Shown: piece after piece, positions 37,982 through 48,437 of the stretch
Position numbering within the stretch: position 1 is the first letter of the stretch
Layout: each line of letters opens with the position of its first letter
DNA from: Chthoniobacter flavus
GTDB taxonomy: Bacteria; Verrucomicrobiota; Verrucomicrobiia; Chthoniobacterales; Chthoniobacteraceae
Assembly (NCBI GenBank): GCA_945861435.1
Contig: CAMAUX010000041.1
Coordinates: forward strand, 1 to 48,437
Length of the DNA stretch: 48,437 nt
Direction: 5' to 3'
The notes under the pieces: generated by a model
Databases searched by the model: none
Seen by the model: the letters and a program-made list of their open reading frames with translations, nothing else
Told to the model about the DNA's origin: nothing
Program-made: the position numbers and the translations under genes

Positions 37982-38120
37982 GGCGGGGTGAGAGGGGATG
38001 TTTAGGGCATCCAACCCCGGGGCGGAATGCGTGGGGAATGATGCTGCGGATACGGAGGGTGATCACCTCCATGGCGCAGCAGCAACCTCTTCCTACATTG
38101 CGGGCATCAGCGGTATTCCT

Positions 38121-39674
38121 ATGAAAAACAGCAAAGTGGCCGGAACAATTCCGGCATGGCAGGGGAGAGTGGGGAGGTGGATGCGGTCTCTGAGCGCTGC
38201 AGCGCTGGGGGTTTTGGGTTCGTCGGCATGGGCCGTGACGGAGCTGCCCAAGGTGGTGCAGGTCAACGTTCCGCTCACCAGTGTCCGTGGCGAATCGTCC
38301 TCTGAAACGGTGTACAAGTGCGCGGTGCCGGAGGGCGCATTCAACCTGCGTTTCACAGCGACGGGTGGCACGGGTGATAGCGATCTGTTCGTGCGCTATG
38401 GGGCGCATCCCACCGTGGAGCGGTTCGATGAGGCAAGCCGCTCGGTGGGCAGCAAGGAGTTGATCGTGCTGGCAGCGCCCACATCCGGGGTTTGGTACAT
38501 GATGCTCTATGGGTTCAGCGCCTATACGGGGGTCACGGTGACGATGCGCTATGACCTCCCGGTGGGCAAACCCGCTACGCCGCTGCTCAGTCCAGGGCCG
38601 GGGAGCTTCATGGGGCCTGCATCGGTCACGATGACTTCCACGCGGGCGGCGAAGATCTATTACACTCTCGACGGTTCGGAGCCGACGGCTCTCTCGACCC
38701 TCTACACAAAACCCGTGGTCGTGTCGGCGAGCGCGACATTGAAGGCGCGGGCCTATCTCGGCGTGGTGGCGGGCGGCGTGATGGAGGGGGGGTACGACAT
38801 CAGCGCAGTGTGGCCTCCTGTGGAGCTGCAGAACGGGGTCGCGTCTTATCCGCGCTGCGGCAACCGGGCCACGACGAGCTACTTCAAAGTCAGTGTGCCC
38901 GCGGGCCAGAAGTATCTGCGGATCCTGACCAGTGGGGGCTCCGGGGATAGTGCGTTTTACCTGAGGCACAGCTACTCGCTCACCTCAGTCGCCTCCTACT
39001 ACAACAGCACCGGCAACTGGGCTACCGTGACGATCGCCAATCCCTTGGAAGGGGACTGGGTCATCGGTCTTCGCGGGTTGTCCGACTTCACAGGGGTGAG
39101 TCTCCTCGCTCAATACGGAGGGCTCCAGGGGGACCTGATGGTATGGCCCGAAAGCATGCGTCCCTACGCAACAACGGAAAGTTTCCTGCCCGGGGATTGC
39201 GTGGTTCAAGAGGGGACGGTTGCGGCGGGAGCGCGGAGGTTGCTGCGGTTCACAACGGAGACGCGCAATATCGGCTCTGCGGATATCGTGTTGGGGAACC
39301 CTGTGGGCGACTCGCGATTCATCTTCTTCGAGTGCCATGGCCACTATCACTTCAACGGGTTCGCGGCCTATCGGCTGCTGAATCTGGATGGGGAGCTGGT
39401 TGCGGTAGGCAAGAAGGCGAGCTTCTGCATCGAGGATGTGCGCGCATGGGATCCGAAGGCGCCGGTGCGCCGCACGGTGTTTACTTGCGACTATCAGGGG
39501 CTGCACATGGGCTGGGCGGACATCTACGACAGCGGACTGCCGGGGCAGTGGGTGGATATCACCGGAGTGCCTCCGGGTGAGTACGTCCTCGAGGTGATCG
39601 TGAACTCCGAAGGCTTTATTCCCGAAGCCAACTACGAGAACAACGCCACCCGGGTCCGGGTCCGCATCAATTAG
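38121..39674 (+). CDS. Secreted multidomain protein with C-terminal lysyl oxidase domain
   Basis: From the ATG at 38121 the product has 517 residues with a signal peptide (cleavage near SSAWA). Two PPC-like beta-sandwich domains (about 45-145 and 240-335) flank a chitobiase C-terminal-type domain (about 150-230, IYYTLDGSEPT). From about residue 350 the sequence follows lysyl oxidase. The copper site is His406, His408, His410 in FFECHGHYHF. Lys432 in GKKASFC and Tyr469 in ADIYDSGLPGQWVDIT align with the Lys and Tyr that form the lysyl-tyrosyl-quinone cofactor of animal enzymes. PPGEYVLEVIVN and PEANYENN complete the fold. Predicted activity is oxidative deamination of lysine or another primary amine outside the cell. 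The natural substrate is unknown. Confidence 0.85.
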   Translation: MKNSKVAGTIPAWQGRVGRWMRSLSAAALGVLGSSAWAVTELPKVVQVNVPLTSVRGESSSETVYKCAVPEGAFNLRFTATGGTGDSDLFVRYGAHPTVERFDEASRSVGSKELIVLAAPTSGVWYMMLYGFSAYTGVTVTMRYDLPVGKPATPLLSPGPGSFMGPASVTMTSTRAAKIYYTLDGSEPTALSTLYTKPVVVSASATLKARAYLGVVAGGVMEGGYDISAVWPPVELQNGVASYPRCGNRATTSYFKVSVPAGQKYLRILTSGGSGDSAFYLRHSYSLTSVASYYNSTGNWATVTIANPLEGDWVIGLRGLSDFTGVSLLAQYGGLQGDLMVWPESMRPYATTESFLPGDCVVQEGTVAAGARRLLRFTTETRNIGSADIVLGNPVGDSRFIFFECHGHYHFNGFAAYRLLNLDGELVAVGKKASFCIEDVRAWDPKAPVRRTVFTCDYQGLHMGWADIYDSGLPGQWVDITGVPPGEYVLEVIVNSEGFIPEANYENNATRVRVRIN

Positions 39675-39990: not shown

Positions 39991-40084
39991 CGCGTGGGGA
40001 AACGGGTTCCGGTGGTTCCCGCAATCCGCTTTGCGGATTGCGTTCACCGACCGGCTAATTGCTTTCATGCCTCCGGCATGCTGA
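39991..40084 (+). repeat. Dispersed repeat B, copy 2
   Basis: Same orientation as 2236-2332, with the CCGGTGGTTCCCGC and CATGCCTCCGGCATGCTGA blocks kept. Confidence 0.75.
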
Positions 40085-40175
40085 CGGTGAGATCGCCTGA
40101 TTCGTGGCCGAGCTACCCCATCGAGGCATCGGTCGTGCCTTGTTGAGGGAGCCCGAGCAGGCAAATGGCACTCGC

Positions 40176-40278
40176 AACTTCAGCATGCCGGAGGCATGGG
40201 AGCCCATAGCCGGTCGGTGACCGCAGTTCGCATCGCGAACGCAGGGAACCACCGGATCGCCGGCTCCCACGCAACGCG
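40176..40278 (-). repeat. Dispersed repeat B, copy 3 (inverted)
   Basis: It is the reverse complement of copies 1 and 2, with CATGCTGAAGTT at the 3' end on the minus strand. Copies 2 and 3 form a long inverted pair separated by 91 bases, able to fold back on itself. Confidence 0.75.
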
Positions 40279-40892: not shown

Positions 40893-41852
40893 ATGAAAGC
40901 AATTCAATCCATCCTGCTGCTGGTGCCTGTCCTGCTGCTTCTCGTCCAAGCGGCTGGGAGTGCTGCGGTGAAGCCCTCCGACGAGGCGGTGCCGGCTCTC
41001 GCCCCCATTTGGGCTGCTGTGTCGGCCGGTGAGCGACTCAAGGCCGTGCGCGCGGCTGAACTGGACGCCGATCGTCTGCTGGCGGAGAGGATTTACGGAG
41101 CGCAGGTGGATGCAGGAACGAGGGTCGTGGATTTGGCTCTCGAGCAGGACGAGGTGAGGGTGGCTCTTCAGGCAACCCTCAAGGGCGCCGTCACCACCGA
41201 GGGGCCCGAGTTCAAGGAAGACGGCCAGGTGCAGGTGGTGCGCGGGTTGAAGATCGAGGAGGTCGTGCAGACGCTGACCCGCGTGGTCAAGGGACGGCGG
41301 ATCGAGGTGGGAGATTTCAAGCCCCTCTCCGACCAAACGGATACCAAGCGTGAAGTGAGACAGAAGCTCATCGACGTGACAGGCAACTCGGCGATCTCCG
41401 GTTCGCCTGGTCATGACAAGATTCTCTCCAAGCGGGCGGCGGAGGCCGATGCATACAGGCGCCTTGCCGCCCGGATGGCGGGGGTCAAGATCACCGGGAC
41501 GACGACGGTGCGCGACCTGTGCCTGAGGGACGATCGGATCATGGCGGCACTCAGCCACGTGCTGAAGGCGGCGGTTCCCATCGCGGTCCGCTATCTGGGG
41601 ACGGACGGGTGCGAGGTGACCATGGAACTAAAGGTCGAGGATGTGGTCCGCACCACGATGCACTTTGCCGACGGCGATATCCGCAAAGCGGTGATCAAGG
41701 ATTCGCTCGAGACGAAGTCCTTCACTGAGACGGGTTCGGGCGCTGTGCGTGCGCGAGTATCGGTTCCGCCGCCGGACGAACCGGTGGGAGGAGAGTCGGA
41801 GACGCAGATGATTCTGAAGGAAGTCATCCGCTCGGAACCGCTGGTTCAGTGA
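40893..41852 (+). CDS. Exported protein with two LPP20-like domains (FlgP-like)
   Basis: From the ATG at 40893 the product has 319 residues and a signal peptide (MKAIQSILLLVPVLLLLVQAAGSAA). It contains two copies of one domain. Copy 1 (about 45-150) starts at AAELDADRLLAERIYGAQV, and copy 2 (about 190-290) at RAAEADAYRRLAARMAGVKI. Each is followed by a DLxLxxDxxxxAL segment and a strand ending in KxExVV. This is the LPP20-type pattern shared with FlgP, an outer-membrane flagellar accessory protein. No lipobox Cys was seen. The gene opens a tight four-gene cluster; the lipoprotein gene starts 8 bases after its stop. Homology to FlgP is at superfamily level only. Confidence 0.65.
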   Translation: MKAIQSILLLVPVLLLLVQAAGSAAVKPSDEAVPALAPIWAAVSAGERLKAVRAAELDADRLLAERIYGAQVDAGTRVVDLALEQDEVRVALQATLKGAVTTEGPEFKEDGQVQVVRGLKIEEVVQTLTRVVKGRRIEVGDFKPLSDQTDTKREVRQKLIDVTGNSAISGSPGHDKILSKRAAEADAYRRLAARMAGVKITGTTTVRDLCLRDDRIMAALSHVLKAAVPIAVRYLGTDGCEVTMELKVEDVVRTTMHFADGDIRKAVIKDSLETKSFTETGSGAVRARVSVPPPDEPVGGESETQMILKEVIRSEPLVQ

Positions 41853-41860
41853 GGATCGCC

Positions 41861-42547
41861 ATGAAACGCATCATTCTCTGCATCGCGCTGGGGCTGGCTG
41901 GTTGCGCCCAGCATTCCAAGCACAAGGGGTCCGAGGCGGGGATCGATCTGATCTCGCAGGAGGATGGGCCGGGACAGGCGATTCACGCTGCCGCTGCGAC
42001 TGCGCCCTCCGGAGCCGCACCTCGCGGTGTGGTCGGCCGCAATTCGGCACTGATCTGGATTACCGGCGGGGAGGGCACTGCGACCGCGCGGACCGCTCCG
42101 GAGGCGCAGCCAGGGAAGGGGGCGGCGACCGACGCGGGGCGGAAGCCGGTTTCTGCTCAGGCTCAGCCGACCAAGACGCAGGAGAAGTCGTCTGAACGCG
42201 GCGCCGTCTCCAAGCCTGTGGTGGAAGAAAAGGAGAAGAGCGATGAGCCGCAATGGATGCGGTTTGTCGACAAGCCCGGGGCCGGAGCGAAGCAACCGGA
42301 GTCTTCAGCCAGTGCGACGAGTCCCAAGACGCCGCCAAAGAAGCCCGCTTCAGCGGGGGGTGACGCTGCGAAGGCGGGAAAATCCAAGGGCTCCAAGGCG
42401 CCTTCCAAGGGGCCTTCGAAAAAGACGGGGCCGAAGGGTGAGCCTGTGAAGGGAGATCGTGTCAATGAGATGCAGTCTTCCACGACTGAACGGGTGATTG
42501 AGTCCCGGCCGATGGTTGGGACGGATGCGGAGTTGAAGACGCGGTGA
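41861..42547 (+). CDS. Putative lipoprotein, Lys/Pro/Ser-rich
   Basis: The product has 228 residues from the ATG at 41861. GAGGA sits just upstream as ribosome site. The signal ends in a lipobox (LGLAGC), so the protein should be lipid-anchored. The mature part is low complexity, with Ala/Pro/Lys/Ser runs and a highly basic stretch (KAGKSKGSKAPSKGPSKK), and is probably unfolded. One short segment (GVVGRNSALIWITGG) looks structured. No family was recognised. Its position between the LPP20-like and CsgG/FlgO-like genes suggests it is part of the same envelope complex, perhaps a linker through the periplasm. Confidence 0.65.
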   Translation: MKRIILCIALGLAGCAQHSKHKGSEAGIDLISQEDGPGQAIHAAAATAPSGAAPRGVVGRNSALIWITGGEGTATARTAPEAQPGKGAATDAGRKPVSAQAQPTKTQEKSSERGAVSKPVVEEKEKSDEPQWMRFVDKPGAGAKQPESSASATSPKTPPKKPASAGGDAAKAGKSKGSKAPSKGPSKKTGPKGEPVKGDRVNEMQSSTTERVIESRPMVGTDAELKTR

Positions 42548-42553
42548 ACTATT

Positions 42554-43750
42554 ATGCTGATGGGGTTGTGGAGGGGGGGAGTGGGGATGCTGCTGGGGGC
42601 CGTGCTGGCGGTGCATGGCGGGCTGTGCGGGGCTCAACCGATCGCGGTGAAGGGTGGGGGCGTGGCCAAGGTCAAGGCGACCGACCCCGTCCGTCGGTCG
42701 ACTCCTCCCGCTCGAGGAGAGAGTGCCGATCCTTTTGCAGCTTTCGCGGAAGAACTGGCCGCGGGCTTGGACACAGGGAAGGACGGCACGGTGAACGTGG
42801 GTGTGGGGAATTTCACGTTTGAGAACACGGATTTGCTCTCCCCGTTCTCCTCGCTGCTGCGCGAGGAGATGGAGATTGCGCTCGGGAAGACCGGGCGACT
42901 CCGTGTGGTGACTCGGGACCGCATCGCAGACCTGCAGCTGGAGGGCAGGTTTCAGAACAAGGAGATCCTCGAGCCCGGCACGGGTGTGGAAAAGGTGAGC
43001 GTGCAGGGAGTGAAGGGGATTGTGCGCGGCCGCTTCTTCATCAGTGCCAGCCAGATCACGGTGTTTGCGGAGTTGGTGTGGCTGGAGGGCGGGGCGGTGC
43101 AGAAGGCGCGCCTTGCGATTCCGACCACACAGGTGAGGGCGAAGCTCTGGCCGGATCCTGTGAGGGCCGCGCTCGGAGACGTGGCGCAGGTCGCCAAGCC
43201 AAGCAACATCGAACGCAGTCTGGCCAACGTGCAGGAGATGGCAGGCGGGCGTCTGGCGCAGGTGCCAAAAGATTTCGATGTGCAGGTCTTCACCGTGGAT
43301 GGCAAACGCGCATACGCGGCTGGTGAAACGGTCGGTTTCCGGGTGCGCGCGGCGCGAGAGTGTCACGTGGCGGTGCTCTGCCACTCGAGCGATGGGACGA
43401 GTGTCGTTCTCTTTCCAAACCGGTGGGCCGACAACACGCTGATCCCTGCCGGCGAGACCATCGAAGTTCCTGGCGCGCGCGCGAGCGGGTTTCAGATTCA
43501 GATCGGCGCACCCTTCGGCTCGGACGTGGTGGAGGTGATCGCCTGCTCGCAGCCTTCCGAACTGCACAGGGCGCTTTCCCGTGCTGCGATGACGCCCGAT
43601 CCCGGCGGACGCAACTTTTCATCGATGCCCCGTGGGATGTTGATCAAGGGGCTCAGCGCAGCGCTTGTGCAGCCTGCATCTGCCACCGATGGCGTCCCGC
43701 TCCAGTGGGGGCGGGATTCGATGGTGGTGAGCACGTTTCCCAAACCGTGA
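42554..43750 (+). CDS. Exported CsgG/FlgO-like protein with C-terminal DUF4384
   Basis: The product has 398 residues with a signal peptide (about 1-27). The N-terminal domain (about 75-215) shows the CsgG/FlgO/LpoB pattern: VNVGVGNFTFENTDLLSPFSSLLREEMEIAL, a GRLRVVTRDRI strand, then VKGIVRGRFFISASQITVFAELVWL. The C-terminal DUF4384 domain (about 260-350) is clear, with VFTVDGKRAYAAGETVGFRVRA, VVLFPNRWADNTLIPAGETIEVP and GSDVVEVIACSQP. Both domains occur in outer-membrane or periplasmic accessory proteins. It starts six bases after the preceding stop and is probably translated from the same message. The function is unknown; an envelope assembly role is inferred. Confidence 0.75.
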   Translation: MLMGLWRGGVGMLLGAVLAVHGGLCGAQPIAVKGGGVAKVKATDPVRRSTPPARGESADPFAAFAEELAAGLDTGKDGTVNVGVGNFTFENTDLLSPFSSLLREEMEIALGKTGRLRVVTRDRIADLQLEGRFQNKEILEPGTGVEKVSVQGVKGIVRGRFFISASQITVFAELVWLEGGAVQKARLAIPTTQVRAKLWPDPVRAALGDVAQVAKPSNIERSLANVQEMAGGRLAQVPKDFDVQVFTVDGKRAYAAGETVGFRVRAARECHVAVLCHSSDGTSVVLFPNRWADNTLIPAGETIEVPGARASGFQIQIGAPFGSDVVEVIACSQPSELHRALSRAAMTPDPGGRNFSSMPRGMLIKGLSAALVQPASATDGVPLQWGRDSMVVSTFPKP

Positions 43751-43793
43751 TTCCCGCGGTGTGAATCATTTCCGCAGTCGGCCCTTTGATCTT

Positions 43794-45125
43794 ATGGAGA
43801 TTTGCACGTGTTCAATTCTGAGAGCTGTGGTGTGTCTGTCCGCGGCCATCTTGCTGGGTGCGGCGCCCGCACTGCGTGCCGTGGAGGTGGAGGCCGATGG
43901 GCGTGCGGCCGGGGATCAGCCCAATGCGCGCGAGCAGGCGCTGGCGGATGCCCTGCGCGAGGCCGTGCGGATGGGCGTGGGCGAGGACGTGCGCAGCTCC
44001 ACTGGAGTGAAGGATTTCGCCCTCGATTTCGACCGGATCCTGAGCAGTGCGTTTGGCCATGTGAAGACGCACCGAGTGCTCAGTTCCGGACTCGCCAAGG
44101 ACGGGTTTTACCACGTGAAAGTGAAGGCGGACGTTGAGAAGGGCACTCCCGCCGCCGGCAACATCCTCGCCTTGCGTCAGCTTGTGCAAATCAAGGGTGC
44201 GCCCCGCGTGGCGATCGCCGTGCAGGATCACATCCACGGCATTGCGGGATCCACTTCCACGGCGGATCCGACGCATTACGCGCAAGCTATTCTCGAGAAG
44301 GTGGCGCGTGACCTGCAGATCAGCCTTGTGGACACTGGCACCGCGCACGCGTCGGAAAACCGGATGGCGGCGCGCGACGAGATCCTCGGCAATGAGCGGG
44401 CGGCCCGATTGCGCAGCGCCGGTGTCACGCAGCAGAGCGACTTCCTGATCGAGGGAAATGTGACGGTGCACTCCATGGGCCGGCAGTCCGCGGGTCCGGG
44501 CGATCTGCAGGCTCCGTACAAGTCGGATCCCACCCATGTGTTCTCGGTGGGCGGCGAACTGAAGGTCTTGGTGCCGGACACGGGTGAGCTCGTGGTCTCA
44601 GTGGTGCTGCAGGGCAACGAGAGCATCGAGAGCGAACTGGTGTCCGCGGAGATGGCGGCACGCGACGTGATCCAGAAGGTGCTTTCCGGTGCGAGGGAGA
44701 AGGGGCAGTCGCCCTTGTTCTCCAAACTGCTGGCGCGCTGGGTTGCTGACAACGATCTCGGCTCGGTGAAGCGTCTCGAGTTTGAGGCAATCACCAGCCC
44801 GCAGTACCAGCATCTGCGGGGCTTGCTGGGTGTGGCGGAGAAGGTGAGCGCAGTGTGGCCCCGCCAGTTCGATGCGCAAGGCCTCAGCGTGATTGACGTG
44901 GAGACGCGTCTGGACGCAGGCGCGCTCGGAGTTCTCCTCGGTGAGATGAGCCGCGGGCAGATCAGCGTGAACCGGGCAACGCAGCATCTGGTTTCCTGCA
45001 GGGTGTTGGCGCCAGTGGCATCCGAGGCAGTTCCTCCCGAGGCATCGGCCGTTCCTCCAGCGACCGGGACGCCTGTTCCGCAGAGTGCGGTTGTGGCGCC
45101 GAGGAAGTGGTGGTGGCCTTTCTAA
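43794..45125 (+). CDS. Exported FlgT-like protein
   Basis: From the ATG at 43794 the product has 443 residues with a signal peptide ending near ALRAVEVEA; a GTG 11 codons earlier is possible. The N-terminal domain (about 25-115) has the FlgT-N pattern AREQALADALREAVRMGVGEDVRSSTG, with FYHVKVKADV at its end. The middle domain (about 135-280) is CsgG-like (RVAIAVQDHIHGI, QSDFLIEGNVTVHSM, SVGGELKVLVPDTGELV). The C-terminal third is not recognised and ends in a Pro-rich tail and RKWWWPF. It is the last gene of the cassette. Its 3' part is copied twice downstream, see the pseudogene entries. Confidence 0.7.
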   Translation: MEICTCSILRAVVCLSAAILLGAAPALRAVEVEADGRAAGDQPNAREQALADALREAVRMGVGEDVRSSTGVKDFALDFDRILSSAFGHVKTHRVLSSGLAKDGFYHVKVKADVEKGTPAAGNILALRQLVQIKGAPRVAIAVQDHIHGIAGSTSTADPTHYAQAILEKVARDLQISLVDTGTAHASENRMAARDEILGNERAARLRSAGVTQQSDFLIEGNVTVHSMGRQSAGPGDLQAPYKSDPTHVFSVGGELKVLVPDTGELVVSVVLQGNESIESELVSAEMAARDVIQKVLSGAREKGQSPLFSKLLARWVADNDLGSVKRLEFEAITSPQYQHLRGLLGVAEKVSAVWPRQFDAQGLSVIDVETRLDAGALGVLLGEMSRGQISVNRATQHLVSCRVLAPVASEAVPPEASAVPPATGTPVPQSAVVAPRKWWWPF

Positions 45126-45160
45126 GGGGGAATGGGCGGGGTGCGTCGTCCGTGCCTTTT

Positions 45161-45259
45161 ACTCCTACTCCTACTCTTACCCCTTACTTTTACTCCCTCT
45201 TCCGGAGCATCGCCGGCAGGTGGGCGGGAGTAAAAGTACGAGTAGGAGTAAGGAGTAAG
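45161..45259. repeat. Inverted repeat of CTCCTACTC type, copy 1
   Basis: The left arm (45161-45196, CTCCTACTCCTACTC...TTTTACTCCC) is approximately complementary to the right arm (45226-45259, GGGAGTAAAAGTACGAGTAGGAG). The core ACTTTTACTCCC/GGGAGTAAAAGT pairs perfectly. Copy 2 lies at 45541-45631. It could be a strong hairpin or terminator after the FlgT-like gene. Confidence 0.75.
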
Positions 45260-45269
45260 AAGTGCGGAG

Positions 45270-45503
45270 ATGGACGTGGAGACGCGTCTGGCCGCAGGCG
45301 CGCTCGGAGTTCTCCTCGGTGAGATGAGCCGGGGGCAGATCAGCGTGAGCCGGGCCACGCAGCATCTGGTTTCCTGCAGGGTGTTGGCGCCAGTGGCATC
45401 CGAGGCAGTTCCTCCCGAGGCATCGGCCGTTCCTCCAGCGACCGGGACGCCTGCTCCGCAGAGTGCGGTTGTGGCGCCGAGGAAGTGGTGGTGGCCTTTC
45501 TAA
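45270..45503 (+). pseudogene. Duplicated 3' end of the FlgT-like gene
   Basis: Bases 45273-45503 repeat 44895-45125 over the same 231 bases with only scattered substitutions and no gaps, including the RKWWWPF tail and stop codon. A 77-codon frame (ATG at 45270) remains open, but there is no ribosome site and the fragment encodes no complete domain. It is a relic of tandem duplication. Confidence 0.8.
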
Positions 45504-45540
45504 TGGGGGGGCGCGTGGGGCGCTTCATCCGTGCCTTTTC

Positions 45541-45631
45541 CTCCTACTCCTACTCTTACCCCTTACTTTTACTCCCTCTCCCGGAGCATCGATGCCATGT
45601 GGGCGGGAGTAAAAGTACGAGTAGGAGTAAG
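45541..45631. repeat. Inverted repeat of CTCCTACTC type, copy 2
   Basis: Nearly identical to copy 1, with the same arms (45541-45575 and 45604-45631). It follows the duplicated gene fragment at the same distance as copy 1 follows the intact gene, so the hairpin was part of the duplicated unit. Confidence 0.75.
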
Positions 45632-45679
45632 CGGTGCGAAAAGAACGGGCGTGCCCGGGACGCAATCCGGCGCGCCGCG

Positions 45680-45784
45680 TTTGAGGCAAGCACCAACCCG
45701 CAGCACCAGCATCCACGCTGGTTGCTGGCTGAGGCGGAAAAGGTGAGCGCAGTGTGGTCCCGCCAGTTCGATGCGCAGGGCCTC
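45680..45784 (+). pseudogene. Second fragment of the FlgT-like gene
   Basis: These 105 bases match 44781-44885, again without gaps. In the intact gene this part lies just before the part copied at 45273, but here the order is reversed: 3' end copy, hairpin, then this piece. The fragment is more diverged and has no open frame of interest. Confidence 0.75.
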
Positions 45785-46284
45785 TGGTGCGGCTTGTGCG
45801 AGGATTACTCCCCAGCATCCGCTTGAGGGGCTGCGCTCCTGATCAGCTCACACCTCCCATTCCGCCGACGTGACGGCGAGGTCGGCCAATGGATCGGTTG
45901 CATTGCGAACGGGTGGCGGCGGGGTTGCCTTCTCGCTGAATTGGCCGTGGCCGTGCCGAAAGACGCTCGCTTCAGACCGGAATATTGCCAGAGACGCGTC
46001 CTGTTGGTGACGGGCTGCGGGCTGCTGCGTCGGGACGGTTCGGAATATGGCGCTGCGGCTTCAAATAAGGCGCTTTGCGGGCTGCGTTTCGGGACGGCGA
46101 ATGCTCGCCGAATAGCATGGGTGCTGGATTTGGAGCCGGGTCAACGCGTTGGAGTCCCGTCGCTTTTCCGTCACTGATTGTTTGCCTTGATGAGCTTCGG
46201 CCCGGGGGTTGTGGAATGTAATGACGGCTCGGTCTGGGGAGAACCCAGAGTCCCGTTCCAGTGCCGCACCCTATCCATCACACC
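45785..46284. other. Gene-free stretch before the surface-protein gene
   Basis: A 78-codon frame (45941-46177) has no recognisable features and was not accepted. The stretch should hold the promoter of the gene at 46285, but no clear motif was seen. Confidence 0.4.
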
Positions 46285-48437
46285 ATGAAGACCACCTCGT
46301 TCACGAAGTTCCTGTTTTCCATGTTAACGGTGTTCGCGGCGTTGTTCGCTGGGCCCTCGGAGAGTTCCGCGCAAACGACACTGGCGGCGGGCGACATCTC
46401 GTTCACGGCGTTCAATTCGAACACGCCCGACAACTTCGCTTTTGTGACGTGGGTGCCGATCCAGGCCGGGACGTATATCAAGTTCACGGATGGCGGTTAC
46501 AATGCGGCGGCTTCTGCGACTCAGGCTGCCAATGCGCGTGGATCGGAGAACTTCGTGATCTGGCAGAACAACACGGGCTCCACGCTGGCTGCCGGAACGG
46601 TGGTGAAGATCGAGGGGTTGACGGCTTCTGCGGGCGTATGCACCGCGGGGTCCGCGTCCGGCCTCAGCAGCATCTCTGCAACAGGCGACCAGATCTTTGC
46701 GTACCAAGGCTCTGCGACATCCGGGACGACGCCCGACTATTCAGGCGCCACGACTACTGCGACCTTCACCGGCACCATTCTTTTTGGTCTGAACTTTCCC
46801 TCCGCATGGATCACGACTGGGAGTGCAAGTTCAAACACCTCTTACCTGCCAACTGAACTGAACGTATCCAATGGCAACATCGCCATTGCGACGGCCAGCG
46901 CAACGAGCGCGCAGTACTCGGGTTCGCGTTCCAATCAGGCGAGCCTTTCAGCCTACAGAGCACTGGTGAACAATCCGGTCAACTGGACCGTGGTGACCAC
47001 CACCGCGCTTACCACCATCGACACCACCGCGTTTGTTTTGTCGGGTCCCTCTCCCACACTCGAAGCGACGGGCACTCTGAGCGCCTTCACCACGATTTAT
47101 GGGACGGCTTCGGCTGCGCAGACGGTGGCGGTGAGCGGCACAAACCTCACGGCGAACATCACGGCGACGGCCCCGACAGGGTTCGAGGTTTCGAGCGATG
47201 GGGCGGTCTACGGCTCCACGGCGACTTTTGTGCAGAGTGGTGGTGCGGCATCCGGCACTCTGTCTGTGCGTCTTGCAGCGACGGCCGCGGTGTCCGGGAG
47301 TTACAACGCGCAGAACATTGCGCTCACGAGCACGGGCGCCACTGCGGTGAACTTGGGCACGGCGGCGAGCGGCAATGCGGTGGCGGCCAAGGGGCTGACG
47401 ATCACGGGCGTGATGGCTTCCAACAAGAGCTACGACGGCGGCAGCACGGCCGCGCTCTCCGGCACCGCGGCCTACGGTGGGCTCGCAAACGGGGAGAGCT
47501 TCAGCGTGACGGGCAACCCATCCGCGGTGTTCGCCAGCGCCGCCGTGGCCACGGGCGTGGCGGTGACGGTCACGGGCTACACCGATCCCTCCGCCAACTA
47601 CACCTTGACCCAACCCACCGGGCTCACAGCGAACATCACCGCGGCCGCCCTGACGGTAACCGCGACCAGCCAGTCGAAGGCTGAGGGGGCAACGCTCACC
47701 GGTGGTGCCGGTTCCACGGCGTTCACGAGCAGCGGTCTGGTGAACGGGGAGACGATCGGCTCGGTTACCCTGAGCTACGGAAGCGGTGCGTTGGCAGGAG
47801 ATCCTGCCGGGGTCTATGCGGGATCCATCACGCCCTCGGCGGCGACGGGCGGTACTTTCACGGCTTCCAATTACAGCATCAGCTATGTGGCCGGGACATT
47901 GACGGTGATGAGCGGTCCCGCGCTCAGTGCGGCGGGCACGCTGTCGGCTCTCGACACGACATACGGCACGGCGACACCAACGCCCGGGAGCCTCACTGTT
48001 TCCGGAGGGAACCTGACCGCGAATATCACGGTGACCGCGCCCACGGGCTTCGAGGTGTCCACCACCGCGGGTGCGGGCTACGGGTCGAGTGTGACGCTGA
48101 CGCCGAGCGGTGGTTCGGTGGCGAGCACGACGGTTTACGTGCGGCTGGCTGCGGCGACCAACGCAGGGACTTTCTCGGGGAACGTGGTGGTGGCGAGCAG
48201 CGGTGCGGAGTCGCAGAATATCGCGACCGCTGCCAGCACGGTGAGTCCCAAGGGGCTGACAATCACGGGCCTGAGCGGGGTGAGCCGCGAGTATGATGGC
48301 GGCACGACGGCCACGCTCAGCGGCACCGCGGCGTACGCGGGTCTTGCCAATGGGGAAAGCTTCTCGGTCACCGGCACGCCCGTCGCGAGCTTCGCAACGA
48401 AGACGGTGGGGACGGCGAAAGCGGTGACGGTGACGGG
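46285..48437 (+). CDS. Large secreted protein with MBG/YDG repeats, 3' end outside window
   Basis: The frame from the ATG at 46285 stays open for 717 codons to the window edge; no stop was found reading through it. A signal peptide (about 1-30) ends in SSAQTT. Residues about 31-245 form an N-terminal domain resembling the lamin-tail-like start of some surface proteins (FTAFNSNTPDNFAFVTWVPI). Repeats then alternate: a beta-sandwich unit (GTLSAFTTIYGTASAAQTVAVSG, about residue 260 and again near 550), YDG-type units (GLTITGVMASNKSYDGG and GLTITGLSGVSREYDGG), and an MBG-type unit (ALTVTATSQSKAEGATL). Such proteins are usually very large adhesins or autotransporters. The C-terminal anchor is not visible. 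Confidence 0.85.
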   Translation, partial: MKTTSFTKFLFSMLTVFAALFAGPSESSAQTTLAAGDISFTAFNSNTPDNFAFVTWVPIQAGTYIKFTDGGYNAAASATQAANARGSENFVIWQNNTGSTLAAGTVVKIEGLTASAGVCTAGSASGLSSISATGDQIFAYQGSATSGTTPDYSGATTTATFTGTILFGLNFPSAWITTGSASSNTSYLPTELNVSNGNIAIATASATSAQYSGSRSNQASLSAYRALVNNPVNWTVVTTTALTTIDTTAFVLSGPSPTLEATGTLSAFTTIYGTASAAQTVAVSGTNLTANITATAPTGFEVSSDGAVYGSTATFVQSGGAASGTLSVRLAATAAVSGSYNAQNIALTSTGATAVNLGTAASGNAVAAKGLTITGVMASNKSYDGGSTAALSGTAAYGGLANGESFSVTGNPSAVFASAAVATGVAVTVTGYTDPSANYTLTQPTGLTANITAAALTVTATSQSKAEGATLTGGAGSTAFTSSGLVNGETIGSVTLSYGSGALAGDPAGVYAGSITPSAATGGTFTASNYSISYVAGTLTVMSGPALSAAGTLSALDTTYGTATPTPGSLTVSGGNLTANITVTAPTGFEVSTTAGAGYGSSVTLTPSGGSVASTTVYVRLAAATNAGTFSGNVVVASSGAESQNIATAASTVSPKGLTITGLSGVSREYDGGTTATLSGTAAYAGLANGESFSVTGTPVASFATKTVGTAKAVTVT

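Follow-up and report, generated by a model that had tools for sequence, protein, structure and literature searches.

A FlgP/FlgT-type envelope gene cassette of Verrucomicrobiota, present also in genomes without an FlhA match and in several relatives close to caspase-family protease genes

We analysed a window of 48,437 nucleotides, the complete contig C41 of a Chthoniobacter flavus genome (G000; 5.35 Mb in 105 contigs), and found that it contains a four-gene operon for exported proteins, P1 to P4, built from FlgP-, LpoB- and FlgT-type domains (Table 1). As the initial annotation had described, the four genes follow one another in this order with tight spacing; all four open reading frames are confirmed on the forward strand, and the gaps between them are 8, 6 and 10 nt. 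The products probably form a stand-alone periplasmic complex that is not a flagellar part. With slightly less than even confidence, we favour a fuller reading, in which they build an outer-membrane-tethered periplasmic scaffold of H-ring-type parts that works with secreted caspase-family proteases. FlgP- and FlgT-type proteins form rings around some bacterial flagella.

Table 1. Genes of the cassette and the degenerate copies downstream of it (positions in the window)
Feature	Position	Strand	Length	Description
P1	40893..41852	+	319 aa	secreted; two tandem FlgP/LPP20 domains, C-terminal linker; signal peptide, no lipobox
P2	41861..42547	+	228 aa	lipoprotein, lipobox LAGC; long Pro/Lys/Ala-rich linker, C-terminal motif
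P3	42554..43750	+	398 aa	signal peptide; LpoB/TolB-N/FlgO-type domain, DUF4384, conserved C-terminal ..VVSTFPKP
P4	43761..45125	+	454 aa (GTG start)	secreted; FlgT-like, three domains
Degenerate copy of P4 3' end, with downstream hairpin repeat	45269..45631	+	363 bp	copies 44891-45252, 94% identity
Second degenerate P4 fragment	45676..45784	+	109 bp	copies 44777-44885, 87% identity

P1, P3 and P4 all begin with export-type signal sequences, and none of the three has a lipobox. When P1 was searched as a single sequence, Pfam LPP20 was reached below the cutoff (E=6e-4, 20.6 versus 25.9 bits). A family profile made from six relatives matched solved FlgP chains with E=2e-8 to 1e-7, among them 8z5n_2 from the LPHT ring (E=2e-8), and it also matched another lipoprotein chain (E=1.8e-11). 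Comparison of the two halves of P1 by hhalign gave E=4e-22 and 35% identity over 89 columns; P1 is therefore a tandem of two FlgP domains, and its description as a FlgP-type protein with a duplicated domain holds. The lipoprotein anchor of the FlgP type is absent from the FlgP-like chain itself, as we saw no lipobox near the start of the window protein and one chance-like match in a relative. A PF02169 search of the same genome gave nothing at threshold and is uninformative, because no control genome gave a match either. P2 is the lipoprotein it was taken to be: its N terminus, MKRIILCIALGLAGC, contains the lipobox. In the relatives examined, a small lipobox-bearing reading frame likewise lies between P1 and P3; its sequence and length vary, but the lipobox, a low-complexity linker and a short C-terminal motif are kept, the latter (of the type ETV..KPVIG.D.EL) being common to the gene in this position in several relatives.

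P4 as a single sequence matched Pfam FlgT_N just under the cutoff (E=1.6e-5, 25.8 versus 28.8 bits). With the P4 model, which is of middling confidence (pLDDT 65), the top two Foldseek matches were the LPHT ring chain 8z5n_0 (E=2e-10) and FlgT (3w1e, E=1e-9), both spanning more than 400 columns, and CsgG came next. P4 is made up of a FlgT_N-like domain at residues 43-125, a CsgG/TolB-N-like middle domain at about 132-332 and a ferredoxin-like C-terminal domain at about 332-416, and so has the N-terminal and middle domains of FlgT in the same order. VIA-align gave the middle domain these limits and placed the ferredoxin-like one at 332-409, where the similarity is to HMA domains (Z 8.4, rmsd 2.2, 73 aligned). 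The FlgT-like character proposed for P4 is thus borne out by the fold of the model. Residues 50-237 also match the NCBIfam model of Leptospira LipL46 (E=2e-7), but far below the cutoff of that model (29.9 versus 400 bits), and P4 does not have a lipobox. Profile searches with P3 and P4 against the sequences of solved structures returned nothing credible. Since single-sequence Pfam searches missed or under-scored the relations to FlgP, FlgT and LpoB, family profiles and models were needed to see them.

P3 was initially read as a CsgG/FlgO-like protein fused to DUF4384. The second half of this claim is secure, as DUF4384 (residues 254-334) was found well above the Pfam cutoff (E=1.6e-17, 63.8 versus 27 bits). 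The N-terminal domain, at about residues 58-205, has no Pfam match, and the FlgO family did not match P3 in Pfam up to E=10 or in NCBIfam up to E=1. The AlphaFold2 model of P3 is poor overall (pLDDT 49); in this low-confidence model the N-terminal domain is most similar to LpoB (Z 10.9, rmsd 3.0, 116 aligned), followed by TolB-N (Z 8.6) and PelC (Z 7.6), with CsgG lower at Z 6.6. The likeness of P3 to CsgG and FlgO, therefore, exists only at the level of the fold superfamily. The likeness to LpoB raises the possibility that P3 regulates a class A PBP as LpoB does, with P1 and P4 as periplasmic partners that sense envelope spacing, and with LprI-domain proteins, of the lysozyme-inhibitor family, protecting the wall; genes for the latter lie beside the cassette in L023, L026 and L027. 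However, the LpoB-type fold does not show function, because TolB, PelC and CsgG have the same fold. LpoB has a lipobox; P3 shares the fold of LpoB, TolB-N and PelC, but is without a lipobox and is fused to DUF4384. In addition, no PBP gene was seen beside the cassette in the neighbourhoods annotated, and we consider peptidoglycan-synthase regulation unlikely.

With P4, P3 and P1 as queries, we recovered the cassette from Spartobacteria, Akkermansiaceae, rumen Akkermansia and other Verrucomicrobiota, with relatives 35-51% (P1), 33-57% (P3) and 33-55% (P4) identical to the window proteins. The order P1-lipoprotein-P3-P4, whose conservation the initial annotation had proposed to check, recurs in distant members of the phylum (L026, Spartobacteria KT_bin-1681; L023, Akkermansiaceae; L050, from G216). 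The order P1-lipoprotein-P3 is seen in L027 and L048, with inserted genes and then P4 in L027; L028, L029 and L049 have P4-P1-lipoprotein-P3 with small changes, and in G040 the cassette is split in two parts on two contigs. Among 388 genomes drawn evenly from the phylum, 6 have P3, 14 have P1 and 31 have P4, and every genome with P1 (14/14) or P3 (6/6) also had P4 (hypergeometric p=2e-17 and 2e-7, respectively). The rumen Akkermansia cassettes have protein kinase genes and a small helix-turn-helix-like gene nearby, and that of L029 also a dynamin-like GTPase gene (L028 7831-9099; L029 5387-6883 and 13957-15960).

Pairwise distances of P1, P3 and P4 are strongly correlated among nine cassettes (Mantel r 0.83-0.88). 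In the P1, P3 and P4 trees alike, the window clusters with G040, which belongs to another family of the order, and with L023 of Akkermansiaceae (bootstrap 88, 67 and 100), while G020 and G024, from the window's own family, stand apart from it. Together with the patchy distribution, these trees suggest that the cassette moves as a unit; such transfer seems the simplest reading, with weak support in the P3 tree. We also considered a foreign-composition island. The GC3 of the cassette (0.72-0.77) is in the same range as that of the remaining window, so that transfer is indicated by the gene trees and not by composition. In more distant members (L089-L103), P4 occurs together with FlgP-like proteins that are shorter and with groups of small lipoproteins, indicating that P4 has other partners too. 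The gene set of L090-L103, in which the small lipoproteins carry repeated SPSTTPIT-type motifs, is without P3.

We saw no flagellar gene among the window genes scanned, in agreement with the initial annotation. As a statement on the organism, 'without flagellar genes' does not hold: contig C38 of the same genome has a flagellar locus, with FlhA (E=4e-253) and neighbours that, from their N-terminal sequences and gene order, read as FliD, FliG, FliI, FlgE, FliL, FliM, FliP-R and FlhB. The cassette could therefore encode a flagellar accessory whose genes are separate from the main flagellar locus and whose products surround the motor as an H-ring or basal disk, as the homology to FlgP and FlgT, the locus in its own genome and the presence of FlhA in 10 of the 17 genomes with P4 or the cassette would allow. 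However, five genomes with the full cassette (G216, G337, G440, G442 and G443) gave no FlhA match, which argues that the cassette does not need a flagellum and favours the stand-alone role suggested at the outset. A flagellar locus that uses these genes had also been allowed for; the locus on C38 exists, but no relatives of P1, P3 or P4 were found in that region, and FlhA and the cassette are on different contigs in G000, G020, G024 and G040. The cassette is thus neither encoded with a flagellum nor dependent on one in the way of an H-ring. Given also the protease genes near the cassette in relatives, we regard a flagellar accessory as distinctly unlikely. Membership of the flagellar locus itself is ruled out by position (C38 versus C41) and by the carriers without FlhA. 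The initial annotation had also proposed an export channel; one of the CsgG type that secretes a polypeptide or fibre is highly improbable. P4 (middle domain) and P3 (N-terminal domain) share the CsgG core fold, but the P3 domain, at about 130 residues near LpoB and much shorter than the CsgG chains compared, seems too small to accommodate transmembrane hairpins like those of CsgG, and the low-confidence P3 model is clearly closer to LpoB than to CsgG. A lipobox is absent from both P3 and P4 of the window, and no curli-like substrate gene was noticed nearby.

The preferred reading, a scaffold working with secreted proteases, draws on the genes that surround the cassette. In relatives it adjoins genes for caspase-family (PF00656), TPR-CHAT (PF12770) and LprI-domain proteins. 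In the nine genomes with a full cassette, we counted 8 caspase domains no more than 10 kb away from it, versus 0.22 expected from the caspase number and size of each genome (Poisson p=1e-10, with kinship ignored), and a caspase gene is found within this distance in 5 of the 9. G441 was excluded from this count, as its search returned no caspase although its locus L024 has a caspase gene (E=1.3e-18). G024 has both of its caspases next to the cassette, and G337 and G442 each have their three (3/3) on the cassette contig (that of G442 matched via the L028 coordinates). G040 has just a TPR-CHAT gene next to P4, and no protease genes were found near the cassette in G216 or G443, or in the window, which extends only 3.3 kb to the right of the cassette. 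Most of the neighbouring proteases have signal-peptide-like N termini; the CHAT proteins keep their His and Cys motifs, and most caspases keep the D-x-C motif.

Four caspase domains and one CHAT domain are encoded in the window's own genome, all elsewhere than in the window. Only two DUF4384 domains are found there; the second, at C62:24037, is encoded next to genes for two secreted caspase/FGE-sulfatase-domain proteins and an OmpA-domain protein, which ties DUF4384 to secreted caspases within this genome. The DUF4384 protein of this cluster (L037 7099-14475) has 768 aa and a CxxCH-like motif at its N terminus. DUF4384 is also known from a report on cyanobacterial orthocaspases (PMC7475262), in which it is associated with the caspase domain in one chain; here, in contrast, it is carried by P3, and the caspases of the relatives are encoded by separate neighbouring genes. 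Gene neighbourhood thus suggests a link between the cassette and secreted proteases. It is also possible that their co-location could reflect shared genomic islands instead of function.

If the cassette does encode such a scaffold, it would lie under the outer membrane and consist of the same kinds of parts as the flagellar H-ring or basal disk. By analogy with FlgP and FlgT, subunits of P1 with their double FlgP domain, together with P4 as a FlgT-like organiser, may assemble into a ring or disk, which the lipoprotein P2 would tether to the outer membrane. The LpoB/TolB-N-type domain of P3 would dock on the scaffold or on the cell wall, and its DUF4384 would most likely recruit or regulate secreted caspase- and CHAT-family proteases. 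In this genome the proteases would act from the caspase-OmpA-DUF4384 cluster on C62 or from genes beyond the contig end. The task of the complex would probably be controlled proteolysis in the envelope, or envelope surveillance. A bolder version, in which a horizontally moving, flagellum-independent H-ring-like platform of Verrucomicrobiota positions secreted caspase and CHAT proteases under the outer membrane as a periplasmic surveillance or killing machine, assembled from components so far known chiefly as flagellar rings, is somewhat unlikely.

FlgO, FlgP and FlgT have so far been treated as flagellar parts of certain motors, as in studies of the H-ring (PMC6375700, PMC5758724). The cassette resembles the Vibrio-type H-ring, or LPHT ring, in that P1 matches FlgP chains and the top fold match of P4 is a ring chain. 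Several points set it apart: the FlgP domain is doubled in P1, which has no lipobox; P3 contains DUF4384 and did not match a FlgO profile; and the genes are found away from the flagellar locus, as well as in genomes that lack FlhA. For proteins of this type with no clear part in the flagellum, the closest known case is the Helicobacter pylori HP1454-HP1456 (Lpp20) operon, which likewise encodes a secreted three-domain protein together with the Lpp20 lipoprotein. Mutants deleted for hp1456 did not differ in flagellar number or in soft-agar motility, although HP1456 and HP1454 bind FlgP and FapH (PMC11756786). Unlike for the cassette, no DUF4384 protein or protease link is reported there. In a limited search of the open-access literature, we found no description of a FlgP-LpoB/DUF4384-FlgT cassette or of its caspase link. 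A conserved and mobile cassette of this kind in non-flagellated bacteria would mean that a ring-forming module also exists independently of the flagellum, and might shed light on the origin of motor accessory rings; the link to secreted caspase and CHAT proteins, if true, would extend prokaryotic caspase biology to the periplasm.

Upstream of P1, at about 55-85 nt, there is one weak promoter-like site, and directly after P4 there are terminator-like stems, neither clearly above chance. Just upstream of the cassette region, 37998-39674 encodes a secreted protein with PPC, chitobiase-C-like and lysyl-oxidase domains. It is followed by an imperfect palindrome of 250 bp (40008-40256, 73% self-complementary), which is probably an interspersed repeat, because its minus-strand translation resembles that of L012 13665-14159 on contig C38. 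At the other side, 46261-48437 encodes a large secreted YDG/MBG-repeat protein that is cut off by the contig end. A hairpin repeat of the ACTCCTACTC type follows both P4 and the first copy of its 3' end. G040 shows a duplication of this 3' part of P4, likewise downstream of the gene (L054 7720-7961; 92%, 242 bp), with PIN-like and small antitoxin-like genes between the copies; among 14 loci checked, the window and G040 are the two with this duplication.
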